Shown here in pieces: positions 4,942 through 39,766 of a stretch of DNA of 64,000 nt. The notes beneath the pieces are model-generated. The model worked only from the letters and a program-made list of their open reading frames with translations, did no database searches and was not told where the DNA came from. The translations under genes and the position numbers were made by a program. This DNA is from Alkalibacillus filiformis (GTDB taxonomy: Bacteria > Bacillota > Bacilli > Bacillales > Alkalibacillaceae): contig NZ_JAUSUP010000001.1 of NCBI RefSeq assembly GCF_030814115.1, forward strand, positions 62,001 to 126,000. Reading direction: 5' to 3'. The first letter of the stretch is position 1; each line of letters opens with the position of its first letter.

Positions 4942-6464
4942 ATGGAGGAGAAGCGTCGTGGGTTCTTTCAACGATTCCTTGATGTCATCGAGCGTACAGG
5001 CAACAAACTCCCACATCCGGTAACATTATTTGCGATCTTAGCATTAATGGTACTTGTGGCGTCTGCAATCGTTTCGAACATGGGGCTATCAGTTGAACAC
5101 CCTGGGGATGAAAGTGACGTAACAGTTAACAACTTATTAAACACAGAAGGTATTCGCTATATTTTTGGAAGTATGGTCGATAACTTTATCGGATTCGCTC
5201 CGCTTGGCGTTGTATTAGCGACAATGTTAGGTATCGGTATTGCTGAAAGATCAGGACTTATTAGTGCAGCATTACGCGGGTTTGTATTATCAGTACCTGG
5301 TTTCTTAATTACAGCGGGAATTGTTTTTGCTGGTATTATGTCGAGTGTAGCATCAGATGCTGGTTACGTTGTATTACCACCATTAGGTGCAGTTATCTTT
5401 GCCGCATTAGGTCGTCACCCGTTAGCTGGTTTAGCAGCAGCATTCGCTGGTGTATCAGCCGGTTTCAGTGCGAACCTTTTCTTATCGGCAACTGACGCAA
5501 TGTTAGGTGAAATTACAATTGAAGCAGCGGCAATCGTAAATCCTGCATACGCTGAGACGATGAACATCGCGATGAACTACTGGTTCATAATAGCTTCAGT
5601 CATTATTCTGACTCTTGTTGGTTGGTTCGTTACTGAGAAGATTGTTGAACCACGTCTTGGAGAATATAAAGGCGAATATCGTGAGGAACTAACTGGTTTA
5701 GAAGCTACAGAAAAGAAAGGCCTTGTATGGGCAACTGTTTCTGGTTTAGTCACAGCCATTGGTTTTGCATTACTAGTGCTACTTCCAAACGGACCTTTAC
5801 GTGCAGATGATGGTGGTATTATCCAATCACCATTTTGGATTCACTCGTTCCAATTATTTTAATCCTGTTCTTCGTACCAGGGCTTGTCTATGGTATTGTA
5901 ACGAAGGCAATTAAAAGTGATAAAGACGTGGCGAACCAACTGTCTGATACGATGGCAGCCATGGGTATGTTTATTGTCCTTGCTTTCACAGCAGGTCAGT
6001 TCGTCGCATACTTCAATGAGTCAAACATGGGTCTAGTATTAGGTGTATTAGGTGCAGAGTTTCTTGAAGCCGCGAACTTTACCGGTGTTCCATTAATTGT
6101 TGCGTTTATTTTCGTCGTAGGTGTCATTAACTTATTCGTCGGAAGTGCAACAGCAAAATGGGCCATGTTAGCACCTGTATTCGTGCCAATTATGATGCAA
6201 TTAGGTTATTCACCTGAAATGGCACAAATGGCATACAGAATTTCAGATTCAGCAACTAATATTATTACACCATTACTACCGTACTTCGCGATTATTATCG
6301 CGTTTGCGCAACGTTACAGCAAGAACATGGGGATTGGTACACTGATTTCAGTTATGTTCCCATACTCAATTGCATTCATGATCGTTTGGACAATCATGTT
6401 AATTGGTTGGATGTTCCTTGGTCTTGAACTAGGACCTGGTTCTCCGATTCTCTATAATGAGTAA
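4942..6464 (+). pseudogene. AbgT-family transporter, broken by a one-base frameshift
   Basis: The two halves together give the full length of about 507 residues expected for AbgT (p-aminobenzoyl-glutamate/antimetabolite transporters). They contain many membrane helices and the family's glycine-rich segments, for example FIGFAPLGVVLATMLGIGIAER in the first half and the C-terminal GSATAKWAMLAPVFVPI. The first frame runs from 4942 and shifts at the four-T run at 5833-5836. One more T would read SPFLDSLVP and restore the frame into the second half, which stays open to 6464. The absence of any other damage means either a very recent mutation or a homopolymer sequencing error. If intact, the protein would be an inner-membrane exporter or importer. 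Confidence 0.85.
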
Positions 6465-11617: not shown

Positions 11618-11855
11618 ATTTGGCGCTCGCGGATGAAATTTTGGCGTTCGTTGATGATATTCTGGCGCTCACGAAAATTTATCAGCGCTCATGCATACTT
11701 TATCGGCGCTCACGAAAATTTATCAGCGCTCATGCATACTTTATCGGCGCTCGCAAATTTTATCAGCGCTCATGTGCACTTTATCGGCGCTCGCAAATTT
11801 TATCAGCGCTCATGTGCACTTTATCGGCGCTCGTAAAAATTTATCAGCGCTCACA
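11618..11855 (-). repeat. Intergenic array 1 of the GAGCGCYGATAAA/GAGCGCCAAA repeat (12 units)
   Basis: On the minus strand the array reads nine units of GAGCGCYGATAAA (nearest the 3' end of the betaine-binding gene) and then three GAGCGCCAAA-type units, with a period of about 21 bp. In the nine-unit block, CTGATAAA and CCGATAAA alternate perfectly. Several spacers (ATGCATAC, ATGTGCAC) are repeated exactly, so part of the array grew by duplication of a 42-bp pair. Open frames across it encode only repeats of the kind LSAL/YQRS and are not credible genes. This array fills most of the 389 bases between the staygreen and betaine-binding genes. Confidence 0.9.
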
Positions 11856-11869
11856 CCATATGATCATCA

Positions 11870-14038: not shown

Positions 14039-14300
14039 TGAGCGCTGATAAATTGTCATGAACGCCGATAAAAATTGCCGAGCGCCGATAAATTGGTGTG
14101 TGCGCCGATAAAATGTACGTGAACGCCGATAAAAATTTTCGAGCGCTGATAAAATTTCGTGGACGCTGATAAATATCGGTGAGCGAGCGCCAAATAAATT
14201 TTGTGAGTGCCAAAAAAGTATATACGAGCGCCAAATAAATTACGTGAGCGCAAAAAAAGTATGAACGAACGCCAAATAATCTACCAGAGCGCCAAAAATC
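14039..14300 (+). repeat. Intergenic array 2 of the GAGCGCYGATAAA/GAGCGCCAAA repeat (13 units)
   Basis: Seven GATAAA-type units followed by six CCAAA-type units on the plus strand, with a period of about 20-22 bp. The units show more divergence (GAACGCC, GTGCGCC, GGACGCT) than array 1. It lies downstream of the usp gene in the same orientation and fills nearly all of the gap before the next gene. The minus-strand open frames across it are products of the repeat. Confidence 0.9.
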
Positions 14301-18810: not shown

Positions 18811-19380
18811 GTGGGAGAGAAAATGGACCGCCGCAAAAAATACACCCGCATGGTACTAAAAGATAGCATAATTGAACTGTTATCCGAAAAACCGATCACT
18901 TCAGTTACAGTGAAAGAAATTTGCGAACTCGCAGATGTTAACCGTTCAACATTTTATACGCATTACGCTGACCAATATGACTTATTAACGAAAATAGAAA
19001 ATGAAATTATTGATGATATGAACACATACTTAAGTAGCTATAGTTTTACCAAAGAAGACGAAGCTTTATTAATGACTCAAAAACTTGTCGAATACATTAC
19101 CGATAAAAAGCTCATGTTCGAAATACTATTAAATGAAAACGGCGACTCAACTTTCTAAAAACGCGTTATGGAAGTCGCCCGCCGCTTTGTCATGAAAAAT
19201 ACAATGGAAAGCACCGACTTAGAAGAACACTTCTCAAGCTATTTGAGCATTTATATTATTAGCGGCGCCATCCACGTCATCAAAGAATGGATCGCCAGCG
19301 GAATGAAAGAATCACCAAAAGAGATAGCTCAACTCATCAACCACTTTTCTAATCGTGGATTGTCTTATTTGCAGGAGTGA
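18811..19380 (+). pseudogene. TetR-family regulator interrupted by an in-frame TAA
   Basis: From GTG 18811 (behind AGAGGAGGG) the protein reads a standard TetR DNA-binding domain: SIIELLSEKPITSVTVKEICELADVNRSTFYTHYADQYDLLTKI, about residues 15-65. After about 115 residues a TAA (19156-19158) interrupts the ligand-binding domain. The same frame then continues without any further stop to 19380 (KRVMEVARRFVMKNTM and on), giving 189 residues in all, the usual TetR size. A single C-to-T change from CAA would explain it. TetR_C_33-type C termini of this sort regulate adjacent MMPL exporters. If the stop is real, the exporter may be derepressed. Confidence 0.85.
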
Positions 19381-19388
19381 TTGAGAGT

Positions 19389-19579
19389 GAGCGCTGATAA
19401 ATTAGGTTGGGCGCTGATAAAAATTCGCTAGCGCCGATAAAAATGTCTGAGTGCTGATAAAATTTTCTGGGCGCTGATAAACAAAGTGTGAGCGCCGATA
19501 AATTTTGAGCACTGATCAAAGTCCGCAAGCGCCAAATGATTTTCCCGAACGCCAAATTATCAACACGAACGCCAAAAAA
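19389..19579 (+). repeat. Intergenic array 3 of the GAGCGCYGATAAA/GAGCGCCAAA repeat (10 units)
   Basis: Seven GATAAA-type units (the seventh reads GATCAA) and then three CCAAA-type units on the plus strand, with a period of about 20-22 bp. It begins nine bases after the tetR stop codon and runs directly into the terminator of the convergent MFS gene. Confidence 0.9.
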
Positions 19580-22261: not shown

Positions 22262-22580
22262 TTTGGCGTTCGGGGGAATTAATTTGGCGTTCACGAAATT
22301 ATTCTGGCGCTCGCACGAAAATTTATCGGCGCACGCAAATGGTTTATCAGCGCACATGAAAATTTATCGGCGCACGCAAATGGTTTATCAGCGCTCACGA
22401 AAACTTATCGGCGCACGCATATGATTTATCAGCGTTCACGAAAACTTATCGGCGCACGCATATGATTTATCAGCGTTCACGAAAATTTATCGGCGCACGC
22501 AAATGGTTTATCAGCGCTCACGAAAATTGATCAGCGCATGCAAACAACTTATCAGCGCCCAGCATAATTAATCAGCACTC
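22262..22580 (-). repeat. Intergenic array 4 of the GAGCGCYGATAAA/GAGCGCCAAA repeat (16 units)
   Basis: The largest array. On the minus strand it has thirteen GATAAA-type units followed by three CCAAA-type units. In the interior, plus-strand units TTTATCGGCGCACGCAAATG and TTTATCAGCGCTCACGAAA alternate, so the array has a higher-order period of about 42 bp. Its own variant (GCGCAC instead of GCGCTC in every second unit) shows homogenisation within the array. It fills most of the 525 bases between two divergent genes, so unlike the other arrays it does not follow a gene end. Confidence 0.9.
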
Positions 22581-28122: not shown

Positions 28123-28187
28123 CGTTTTTAGCGCTTTTATAACTATGTGTTAAACTGAGTGAAAAAGTAATAATATCGATTATGTTT

Positions 28188-28363
28188 GAGCGCTGATAAG
28201 TTATCTATGAACGCCGATAAAAGTTGTTTAGCGCTGATAAGTAATCCGCGAGCGCCGATAAATTTTGCTGAACGCTGATAAGTAATCCGCGAGCGCCGAT
28301 AAATTTTGCTGAGCACTGATAAAATTCCGTGAGCGCCAAAATCCAAGATTCGAGCGCCAAAAT
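28188..28363 (+). repeat. Intergenic array 5 of the GAGCGCYGATAAA/GAGCGCCAAA repeat (9 units)
   Basis: Seven GATAAA-type units and two CCAAA-type units on the plus strand. CTGATAAG and CCGATAAA alternate through the first six units. One 40-bp pair of units (with spacers TAATCCGCG and TTTTGCTGA) occurs twice in a row, a recent tandem duplication of a dimer. It follows the DUF3231 gene and its terminator. Confidence 0.9.
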
Positions 28364-28434
28364 ATTTTCCTGAGGGTGACTAATGCTGTGGGTACATTTT
28401 CGAGAATAAGAAAATATAGTTTTTCAATTCGGCT

Positions 28435-29132: not shown

Positions 29133-29311
29133 AGTTCTTTCCCCCTTTTTATGGTTACAATTTCAATATATGTGCGAATACCTTTAATGTAAGGGCTTCT
29201 GCGGAATATCTAAAAATGAAGTGTATTCAAAAGTGATGACTGAATATTGAGAATTTGAAGAAAGTAAATTATAATCTTTGTAATAGCAAAATGCATTAAG
29301 GAGGGCTTGAA

Positions 29312-29857
29312 ATGGATTCAAGAATTAAAATGATTGAATCAGATGAAGCTGATGGAAAACTTGAAGAGCTTTATGATCGATTTAATGGAAAGATGGCGAA
29401 CATTTTAAAAGTCCACTCTTTAAATCCAAAATCACTTGAAGCACATCTTAATTATTATAAAGTGATTATGTTCGGAAAGTCCCCTTTAAAACGGGATTTA
29501 AGAGAGATGATTGCTACGGTTGTTTCATCAACTAATGAATGTTTTTACTGAATAGAACATCATGGGGCGGCGCTCCATATGTTAACGAAAGACCAGCACC
29601 TTGTTAATCAGGTGAAGGAAGATTATAAAAATGCAAATTTAGATGACAAAATAAAAGCAATTTTAGATTATGCTGTAAAATTAACAATTGAACCTCATTC
29701 AGTATCAGATGAGGATGTAACTCACCTAAAAGAAATGGGTTGTACAGACCAAGAGATCCTAGACATCTGTCAAATCACTTCATATTTTAACTTTGTAAAT
29801 CGAATGGCTGAAGGTTTAGGGGTTAATTTAGAAGAAGATTTTTATGAAGAAAATTAA
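29312..29857 (+). CDS. AhpD-like peroxidase-related protein with in-frame TGA at the redox cysteine (candidate selenoprotein)
   Basis: Read through one TGA (29549-29551), this is a 181-residue carboxymuconolactone-decarboxylase/AhpD-type protein, the usual family length. The active-site motif of such proteins is C-x-x-C-x-x-x-H. Here it reads Cys77-Phe-Tyr-(TGA, residue 80)-Ile-Glu-His83, so the stop falls exactly on the second redox Cys. The frame then continues unbroken for 101 codons with family features (HHGAALH, then ITSYFNFVNRMAEGLGV near the end). The ATG at 29579 has only a poor ribosome site. A stem-loop starts 5 nt after the TGA. The options are selenocysteine insertion or a TGC/TGT-to-TGA nonsense mutation; other genes in this window do carry disabling mutations. 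AAGGAGGGC precedes the first ATG. Confidence 0.7.
29556..29583 (+). promoter_or_regulatory. Candidate bacterial SECIS stem-loop inside the coding region
   Basis: AACAT (29556-29560) pairs with ATGTT (29579-29583). One C is bulged at 29561. ATGGGG (29562-29567) pairs with CTCCAT (29573-29578, one G-U), leaving the loop CGGCG, which can close one further C-G pair around GGC. The loop lies about 17 nt after the TGA with G at its start, as bacterial SECIS models require. It is notably GC-rich for this gene. Confidence 0.55.
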
Positions 29858-29896
29858 TCGATTCGATGAGGTTAACACCCTAACCGGATTTTGTTT

Positions 29897-29982
29897 AAAT
29901 CGCTCATCGAATCAATTAAGAGGCTCATAGATCCATTCGAGAGGCTCATTAAATCCAACCAACAAGCTCATAGAGATCAACC
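29897..29982 (+). repeat. Short tandem repeat of a second type (about 4 units of 21-22 bp)
   Basis: Four consecutive imperfect units share a GCTCAT core followed by AATC or GATC. Units start near 29897, 29918, 29940 and 29961; two read AGAGGCTCAT. The period matches that of the GAGCGCYGATAAA arrays, but the sequence is different. It lies between the AhpD-like gene and the terminator of the convergent DUF4190 gene. Confidence 0.6.
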
Positions 29983-29991
29983 ATATATAAA

Positions 29992-35261: not shown

Positions 35262-35318
35262 GGCATCTTCCAAACAGGGAGTTGTCTTTTTTGTTTGTTA
35301 AGAAGGTTGATATTGGGT

Positions 35319-35570
35319 GAGCGCTGATAAATTTGCTTGAGCGCTGATAAAAGTTGGTGAACGCTGATAAACATCACGTGAACGCCGATAAAAATTTACG
35401 AGCGCTGATAAGTTAGTCGCGAACGCTGATAATTTTTCCTGAGCGCTGATAAAAAATGTCGGTGAAATATTGTGAACGCCAAATAAATCGCATGAACGCC
35501 AGAATCCAGGCCGCAAGCGCCAAATAATTATCATTAACGCCAAAATCCATACCTCAATCGCCAAAAAATC
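35319..35570 (+). repeat. Intergenic array 6 of the GAGCGCYGATAAA/GAGCGCCAAA repeat (12 units)
   Basis: Seven GATAAA-type units and then five CCAAA-type units on the plus strand, with a period of about 20-22 bp. Here CTGATAAA dominates and the regular alternation is lost, so this copy looks older. A 117-codon minus-strand frame across it is a repeat artefact. It fills most of the 508-base gap; the remainder carries the promoter region of the DMT permease gene, including a small inverted repeat AAACT-N7-AGTTT near 35712. Confidence 0.9.
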
Positions 35571-39056: not shown

Positions 39057-39073
39057 TAGATGATGCTTTCCAG

Positions 39074-39101
39074 ATACCCCTTAAAACTAATTAAGGGGTA
39101 T
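39074..39101 (+). terminator. Rho-independent terminator
   Basis: Perfect 11-pair stem ATACCCCTTAA / TTAAGGGGTAT, loop AACTAA. Confidence 0.85.
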
Positions 39102-39134
39102 TACTTTATTAAAATAAAAATTGGAGGCGCTTTT

Positions 39135-39766
39135 ATGAAGTTTATTGTAGTTGTTTGTTGGTTATTTTTAATCACCCTGGCGGCTTGCACTACAGAGGAT
39201 ACCAATATAGACATTGACCAATCGGCAGAAAATACACTTATAGAAGTGGCAGACAATAATCTCATACACGAAGATGACGGGTACTATGAGGTGAATACAT
39301 TAGAAGAATTATTGGATTCTGAGCTCATCGTGAAAGGCGAAGTCGTTGAGATTGAAGGCCCATTTGAAACAGAAGATCTAATCAATGAACTCTTCCAAGA
39401 CTATAACGATTATTTCAAGTTCCACATCGACCTAATCATTGAAGTCGACGAATACTATGGCAACACACTCCCATATGATGAAATCGTCGTCAGAAGAGAA
39501 GGTGGCAAAATCGACGATCGTGCACACATCACACCATTTGAACATTTCGCAATAGGAGAAAAAGTCCTCATCTTCAATTAGAAAACGATCCCGAAAGATA
39601 CACCCAAGTGCTAGATGGTTACGAGCCAGAACAGTACTTCGGCTTACAGATGAATACAACATTTAAAAAAGGAAGCGGCGATGAGTACATTCGAGCTGAT
39701 GGGGTTGGAGAGTATGAAGGGAGGGAGAAGGTTACGGTTGGTGAGATTGAAAGGGTCATTAAATGA
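39135..39766 (+). pseudogene. Acidic lipoprotein gene with a frameshift
   Basis: The first frame from ATG 39135 (behind GGAGGCGC) gives a lipobox LAAC (Cys18) and an acidic domain ending EHFAIGEKVLIF before TAG 39579-39581. Reading one base earlier just before that stop (ATCTTCCAATTAG instead of ATCTTCAATTAG) joins it to a second frame that runs on to 39766. That continuation (LENDPERYTQVLDGYEPEQY, later VTVGEIERVIK) reads like the natural end of the protein, about 210 residues in total. A one-base deletion near 39575 is therefore likely, either real or a sequencing error. Function unknown. Confidence 0.7.

Follow-up and report, generated by a model that had tools for sequence, protein, structure and literature searches.

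We analyzed a 64,000-nt stretch of the Alkalibacillus filiformis genome (the window) and conclude, with a probability that we put at about 95%, that the TGA at codon 80 of the gene at positions 29312-29857 is recoded as selenocysteine (Sec) and that the gene encodes a selenoprotein. Sec insertion itself is what we infer from the comparative sequence evidence laid out below. What looks like a broken gene, and would be split in two by ordinary gene callers, would thus be a functional gene for a selenoprotein; only the 92-codon part 3' of the TGA appears among the window's frames of at least 90 codons. The gene is a member of the AhpD-like CxxU family, which has been known since 2005, and does not define a new family. 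Its features are collected in Table 1.

Table 1. Positions in the window of the gene at 29312-29857, its predicted functional codons and its candidate signals
Feature	Position	Strand	Basis
Sigma-A-type promoter-like sequence TTGAGA-17-TATAAT (11 of 12)	29247..29275	+	Consensus match only
PerR-box-like sequence overlapping the -10 box (2 of 14 positions mismatched)	29269..29283	+	Weak lead
Putative ribosome-binding site AAGGAGGG	29298..29305	+	Sequence; precedes ATG 29312
Predicted AhpD-like (TIGR01926) selenoprotein CDS, 181 residues with Sec80	29312..29857	+	TIGR01926 and PF02627 matches
Codon of E65, candidate relay residue	29504..29506	+	PMC3141380 (excerpt)
Redox-center codons C77-F78-Y79-U80	29540..29551	+	Translation, codon alignment
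Codon of Y79, candidate relay residue	29546..29548	+	PMC3141380 (excerpt)
TGA probably read as Sec, residue 80, second position of CxxU	29549..29551	+	Codon conservation in homologues
Entire predicted hairpin; outer 5-bp stem 29556-29560/29579-29583, bulge 29561	29556..29583	+	Fold
Codon of H84, invariant His assigned to a proposed proton relay	29561..29563	+	62/62 rows; AhpD relay residues in PMC3141380 (excerpt)
Predicted SECIS core; 7-bp stem 29562-29568/29572-29578, GGC loop 29569-29571	29562..29578	+	Fold, conservation, constraints in PMC13188914 (excerpt)

The in-frame TGA and its conservation

The frame runs from the ATG at 29312 to the TAA at 29857 and comprises 181 codons, with the TGA at codon 80 as its single in-frame stop. 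When Sec was entered as Cys, the read-through protein matched TIGR01926 ("peroxidase-related enzyme") over residues 3-172 with 154.5 bits (cut-off 81.8), and it also matched the CMD domain PF02627 with 41.1 bits (cut-off 23). The residues around the TGA read C77-F-Y-U80-I-E-H83-H84, so that the TGA stands in place of the second Cys of CxxC. A reading of the DNA made from its sequence alone (the sequence-only reading) had placed the TGA at exactly this position of an AhpD-like CxxC...H center, and both the frame and the homologue alignment bear it out. That reading took H83 for the His of the motif, which the C-x-x-C-x-x-x-H spacing corrects to H84; H84 is invariant in 62 aligned rows, and many relatives have A, S, T or V at position 83. 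Two models of a related domain that are selenoproteins by name, NF041238 (AhpD_rel_CFYUT) and NF053654 (YciW-related), gave 51.6 bits (cut-off 175) and 30.2 bits (cut-off 310), respectively, and we do not assign the gene to either because these scores are far under the cut-offs.

As the sequence-only reading stated, AhpD-like CxxU selenoproteins are known from marine metagenomes: the parts of the papers that we draw on describe 27 sequences (COG2128) from the Sargasso Sea survey in 2005 (PMC1088965) and the family again in the GOS survey (PMC2398784). The excerpted text of a 2026 review lists an "AhpD-like protein, TIGR01926, CxxU" (PMC13188914), and that of PMC1794560 gives one AhpD-like selenoprotein in Alkaliphilus metalliredigenes and only three selenoproteins in Bacillales among 2006 genomes. 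The gene described here shares with the family, as these excerpts present it, the TIGR01926 model, the CxxU motif and a bacterial SECIS directly after the UGA. It differs in that the published members in those excerpts come from marine metagenomes and Alkaliphilus, whereas this one belongs to a relative of Filobacillus and Aquisalibacillus, and in that its hairpin core is nearly unchanged among nine close genomes. Filobacillus and Aquisalibacillus were placed in Bacillaceae by the labels of our tree, and Filobacillus by its NCBI lineage as well; we found no paper on an AhpD-like selenoprotein in Bacillaceae in the open-access literature.

We searched 149 genomes, namely the window's own and 148 relatives of the order, with the protein at E 1e-10 and obtained matches in 15. 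Codon 80 was TGA in all nine homologues at or above 63% identity, a set that includes the window's genome, and in none of seven distant rows of 26-34% identity. A second collection, of GTDB genomes, was scanned with patterns placed outside the redox motif. Among the best 80 of 135 relatives obtained in this way, codon 80 was TGA in 73, TGC in 6 and TGT in 1, a proportion that is no census because it describes the best 80 of 135. Five of these 80 loci come from the same genomes as five relatives of the 149-genome search. The window served as the reference for alignment and as the 74th TGA row beside the 73 collection loci.

TGA rows span 14 named phyla on the tree by a count of labels, and a minimum of three changes between Sec and Cys is needed to explain their distribution. 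The window clusters with 12 rows from Bacillaceae and neighboring families, followed by a group of Halobacteroidaceae-type rows together with Salipaludibacillus keqinensis; the outgroup consisted of three of the seven distant Cys rows, taken by a motif filter. A point against recoding is that, in 7/7 comparisons with relatives, dN was higher in the part 3' of the TGA than in the part 5' of it. dS was mostly saturated, and omega for the downstream part could be computed in only one comparison, where it was 0.067.

The sequence-only reading named a nonsense mutation as its rival explanation, and the window does contain two further broken genes (abgT by a frame change near 5840, tetR by the TAA at 19156-19158), but we reject a TGA-broken pseudogene, or a sequencing error, as having next to no chance of being correct because the TGA is common to the homologues: it occupies the same codon in 9/9 close homologues and 73/80 collection loci, with Cys in the other seven, the matched frames of the 80 loci are free of further stops, apart from another TGA in L118 at its far end, and the synonymous sites after the TGA are frozen.

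A constrained hairpin after the TGA

The TGA is followed by a predicted hairpin (Table 1) whose GGC loop lies 17 nt past it. The inner seven pairs are widely kept among relatives, and the outer five are not common to most of them. The sequence-only reading gave the span 29556-29583 and the single bulge as we find them, and its count of 11 pairs becomes 12 (5 + 7). The best fold, at -12.8 kcal/mol, includes two extra pairs reaching the flank of the TGA. Equally good folds arose in 5/200 dinucleotide shuffles (z -2.35), 1% of 300 protein-preserving synonymous shuffles were as stable as the window hairpin, and a rule-conforming stem of equal length appeared in 2.6% of 1000 synonymous shuffles. 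Constraints on bacterial SECIS elements, as set out in the excerpt of PMC13188914, are a loop of 3-9 nt, a stem of 4-16 bp, a G within the first two loop positions, a distance of 16-37 nt from UGA to loop and an energy of <= -7.5 kcal/mol. The window hairpin lies within these limits, with a 3-nt GGC loop, 7 bp, 17 nt and -12.5 kcal/mol, and its C-GGC-G fits the N1-G-[G/U]-N-N2 pattern quoted in the same excerpt. No Rfam family passed its gathering threshold, a negative whose weight depends on Rfam having a general model of bacterial SECIS elements. A SNORD20 match under the gathering score was dismissed as chance.

For the hairpin we regard the comparative evidence as stronger than these single-sequence fold statistics. 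Codons +4 to +8 past the TGA (CAT GGG GCG GCG CTC) are identical in 9/9 close genomes. Degenerate codons for invariant residues were identical in all nine genomes in 5/6 cases within +3 to +9 vs. 1/61 elsewhere (Fisher 3.7e-6), and such frozen synonymous sites make it possible to test sharply which nucleotides of the SECIS are needed by SelB in these bacteria. Stems of 6 bp or more that conform to the rules were present in 70 of the 74 TGA genes vs. one of the seven Cys genes, and stem length was individually significant (p <= 0.05) in 34/74 and 0/7, respectively. Fold energy relative to synonymous shuffles gave a mean z of -1.45 for the 74 TGA rows vs. 0.0 for the seven Cys rows (Mann-Whitney p = 4e-4), with individual p <= 0.05 in 30/74 and 0/7.

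Pairing itself was followed in an alignment of 31 hand-picked rows (30 distinct), all with TGA and all in one register, shifted or other hairpins having been left out. Across the 30 distinct rows, 94.8% of cells were paired, vs. 38-58% with one side slid, a figure that is flattered because only same-register TGA rows were picked. Two-sided changes occurred in only five cells, four rows having C-G for U-A at one pair and one row A-U for C-G at another. The outermost pair was broken in 6/30 rows and two other pairs in three and two rows, and the 30 distinct rows showed no excess of pair types over shuffles (355 of 500).

Selenocysteine machinery and other TGA genes of the genome

The search for selA, selB, selC and selD that the sequence-only reading had proposed as a check returned all four above their cut-offs in the genome itself (2.7 Mb, 97.9% complete). 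tRNA-Sec scored 62.3 bits (cut-off 47), in agreement with a tRNA-SeC call by ARAGORN; selB scored 331.8 bits (cut-off 242), selA 547.5 bits (cut-off 268) and selD, which carries an in-frame TGA, 392.8 bits (cut-off 125). All four lie inside 7 kb (contig C1, 467608-474246). Of 14 control genomes, five were above the cut-off for tRNA-Sec, two for selB, one for selA and two for selD. SelB and tRNA-Sec would act with the hairpin right after the UGA to recode codon 80 as Sec. With these genes present, the TGA kept in 9/9 close homologues, and both the frame and the hairpin conserved after it, each refuting condition of that reading that we checked came out in favor of Sec, and the central claim of a selenoprotein is upheld.

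selA was above the cut-off in 83/149 genomes of the order, which suggests that Sec use is common there. The earlier remark that a selenoprotein is unusual for the Bacillaceae thus fails for Sec use in general and stands for this particular gene, found in 9/149. All nine genomes bearing the gene have selA (P = 0.004 given 83/149), and tRNA-Sec was above the cut-off in 13/13 genomes (the eight other hosts of the gene and five congeners) and in 3/14 controls.

Two further frames of the genome contain a TGA. Between selD and selA lies a small C-M-Q-TGA frame (L018:2575-2808, on C1) with a hairpin after the TGA, which we take by its motif to be SelW-like. The other is a peroxiredoxin (PF00578) on the minus strand of contig C3 (42819-43427; L165:420-1028), whose TGA, in F-T-F-V-TGA-P-T-E, presumably sits where the peroxidatic Cys is normally found. 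Since the AhpD-like gene, selD, the SelW-like frame and the peroxiredoxin each carry a TGA, the genome likely has at least four selenoprotein genes. Among the matches listed, TGA-containing relatives of this peroxiredoxin (at least 54% identity) occur in at least 21 of the 149 genomes, all with selA; the place of the TGA in these peroxiredoxins was read only in the window's own genome.

It could also be supposed that the TGA is decoded as Cys or Trp, or passed by general read-through, without the Sec machinery, and Cys at codon 80 in 7/80 loci would fit such a scheme. Against it, 7 of the window's 49 stop-to-stop frames of 150 codons or more end in TGA, which thus serves as a stop here, tRNA-Sec and SelB are present, rule-conforming stems are concentrated in the TGA genes in the proportions given above, and the same genome has in-frame TGA in selD, the SelW-like frame and the peroxiredoxin. 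We consider this explanation very improbable.

Predicted fold, probable function and genomic context

An AF2 model built from the 62-row alignment with Cys at position 80 is all-helical (pLDDT 94.8), as is the AhpD fold. The alignment combines 53 of the 80 collection loci with nine rows from whole genomes or the window; five of the 27 loci left out belong to genomes already represented. The closest PDB structures are Mlr4105 (3c1l), 2pfx, 2prr and D. radiodurans AhpD (6k40), which share the fold at TM ~0.9 and differ in having Cys rather than Sec and 28-32% identity; the CxxC centers of 3c1l and 2pfx align with the CxxU. E65, C77, Y79, C/U80 and H84 are invariant in 62/62 rows. In the excerpt of PMC3141380, the relay consists of E36, C48, Y50, C51 and H55 in P. 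aeruginosa PA0269 and of E118, C130, H132, C133 and H137 in M. tuberculosis AhpD. The same five positions (Glu, Cys, His/Tyr, Cys, His, spaced 12-2-1-4) are found here in the Tyr form of PA0269, Tyr79 standing where M. tuberculosis AhpD has His132. The spacing matches both proteins and so puts the Sec at the position of Cys133.

The product would be a redox enzyme of the AhpD type, all-helical, with C77-F-Y-U80 as its center and E65, Y79 and H84 as relay residues. Cys133 of M. tuberculosis AhpD is the attacking thiol. By analogy, the selenol at position 80 would attack either a hydroperoxide or the disulfide of a partner, with C77 (the equivalent of Cys130) resolving the intermediate as a selenenylsulfide and a cellular reductant then restoring the center. 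A selenol at this position should speed attack on hydroperoxides or disulfides. Named, cultured relatives carry the gene and natural Cys relatives exist, which makes the contribution of Sec to an AhpD-type center measurable.

On these analogies, we somewhat favor a role as a selenium-dependent AhpD-type hydroperoxide/disulfide oxidoreductase. A competing proposal, to which we assign a smaller yet substantial share, is that the selenoprotein is not a peroxidase and serves instead as a disulfide/dithiol oxidoreductase of another pathway, or in CMD chemistry like that of the debrominase Bmp8. The fold is common to Bmp8 (6ohi, TM 0.77, 20% identity) and to proteins of unknown activity, and members of TIGR01926 are named only "peroxidase-related." All five AhpD relay positions with the PA0269-form spacing of the excerpted account (PMC3141380) speak against it, as does the Bmp8 match being much weaker than the AhpD-like ones.

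A candidate partner is the TGA-encoded peroxiredoxin of the same genome, with which the gene shows weak co-occurrence: among the matches listed, both are found in 5/9 genomes, vs. ~2.3 expected within the 83 selA genomes (P = 0.04). A broader proposal draws on this co-occurrence and on the PerR-like box over the promoter. In it, the Sec-AhpD of these Bacillaceae donates electrons to the Sec-peroxiredoxin of the same genome, forming an AhpC-AhpD pair with selenium as both catalytic atoms and under peroxide control by PerR, and in which the Sec form is the usual one in a subfamily moving among many phyla with its hairpin. We regard this proposal as a long shot.

The upstream signals bear on its regulatory part. 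Nine promoter-like sites were found in the stretch, with 4.1 expected. The box was scored against what we presume to be the PerR consensus, and two mismatches were matched by 1.3% of 2000 shuffles in the window. The corresponding boxes of the two nearest relatives have three and four mismatches, which is within chance there, and we do not adopt PerR control. A relaxed pattern with zero mismatches at the site matched three sites, and 14/100 shuffles gave as many; this is no independent test, because the pattern was written after the site had been seen.

The gene is dispensable, since 5/5 other genomes of the genus have no protein match at E 1e-10 and keep selA. In two congeners (G002 and G003), the flanking DNA on both sides is present in the same order, with ~2 kb extra a little upstream, and the site of the gene is occupied by a shorter stretch only, which in G002 is rich in GCTCATAGA-type repeats. 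The other three congeners gave next to no match to the flanks. Some species thus have the Sec-AhpD gene, and two congeners lack it at the corresponding site. Short GCTCATAGA-type repeats also lie just 3' of the gene in the window (29858-29990), and a longer array occupies the gene-free site of a relative (L176). Across the window and 19 Bacillota loci, no neighbor family recurred in more than four loci, and the gene seems to act alone because no widely conserved neighbor accompanies it; three Halobacteroidaceae-type loci share, by eye, an apparent riboflavin operon. One scan of viral_contigs returned no relative.

Of the three further genes that the sequence-only reading held to be disrupted, abgT and tetR are, by a frame change and a TAA, respectively, and with no in-frame TGA; the third, placed by that reading at 39.1 kb, may correspond to the gene at 39060-39581, which had no Pfam match. 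The AbgT-type transporter (4942-6464) is split into two overlapping frames, the second of which takes up the Pfam profile where the first leaves off (1-296, then 296-502), reflecting either a frame change or an assembly error. The TetR-type regulator (18823-19377) has TetR_N before and TetR_C_8 after its in-frame TAA. When frames separated by a single stop were joined, inspection by eye found only one, at 29312, with a TGA flanked on either side by family homology; the list was confined to frames less than 45% covered by longer frames, and homology was searched for a minority of them. A dispersed intergenic repeat lies at 28183-28377, with more copies near 11638-11856, 14039-14185, 19388-19536, 22291-22580 and 35318-35454; the copies in the window are 72-79% identical to one another, and the repeat has dozens of matches in two congeners.
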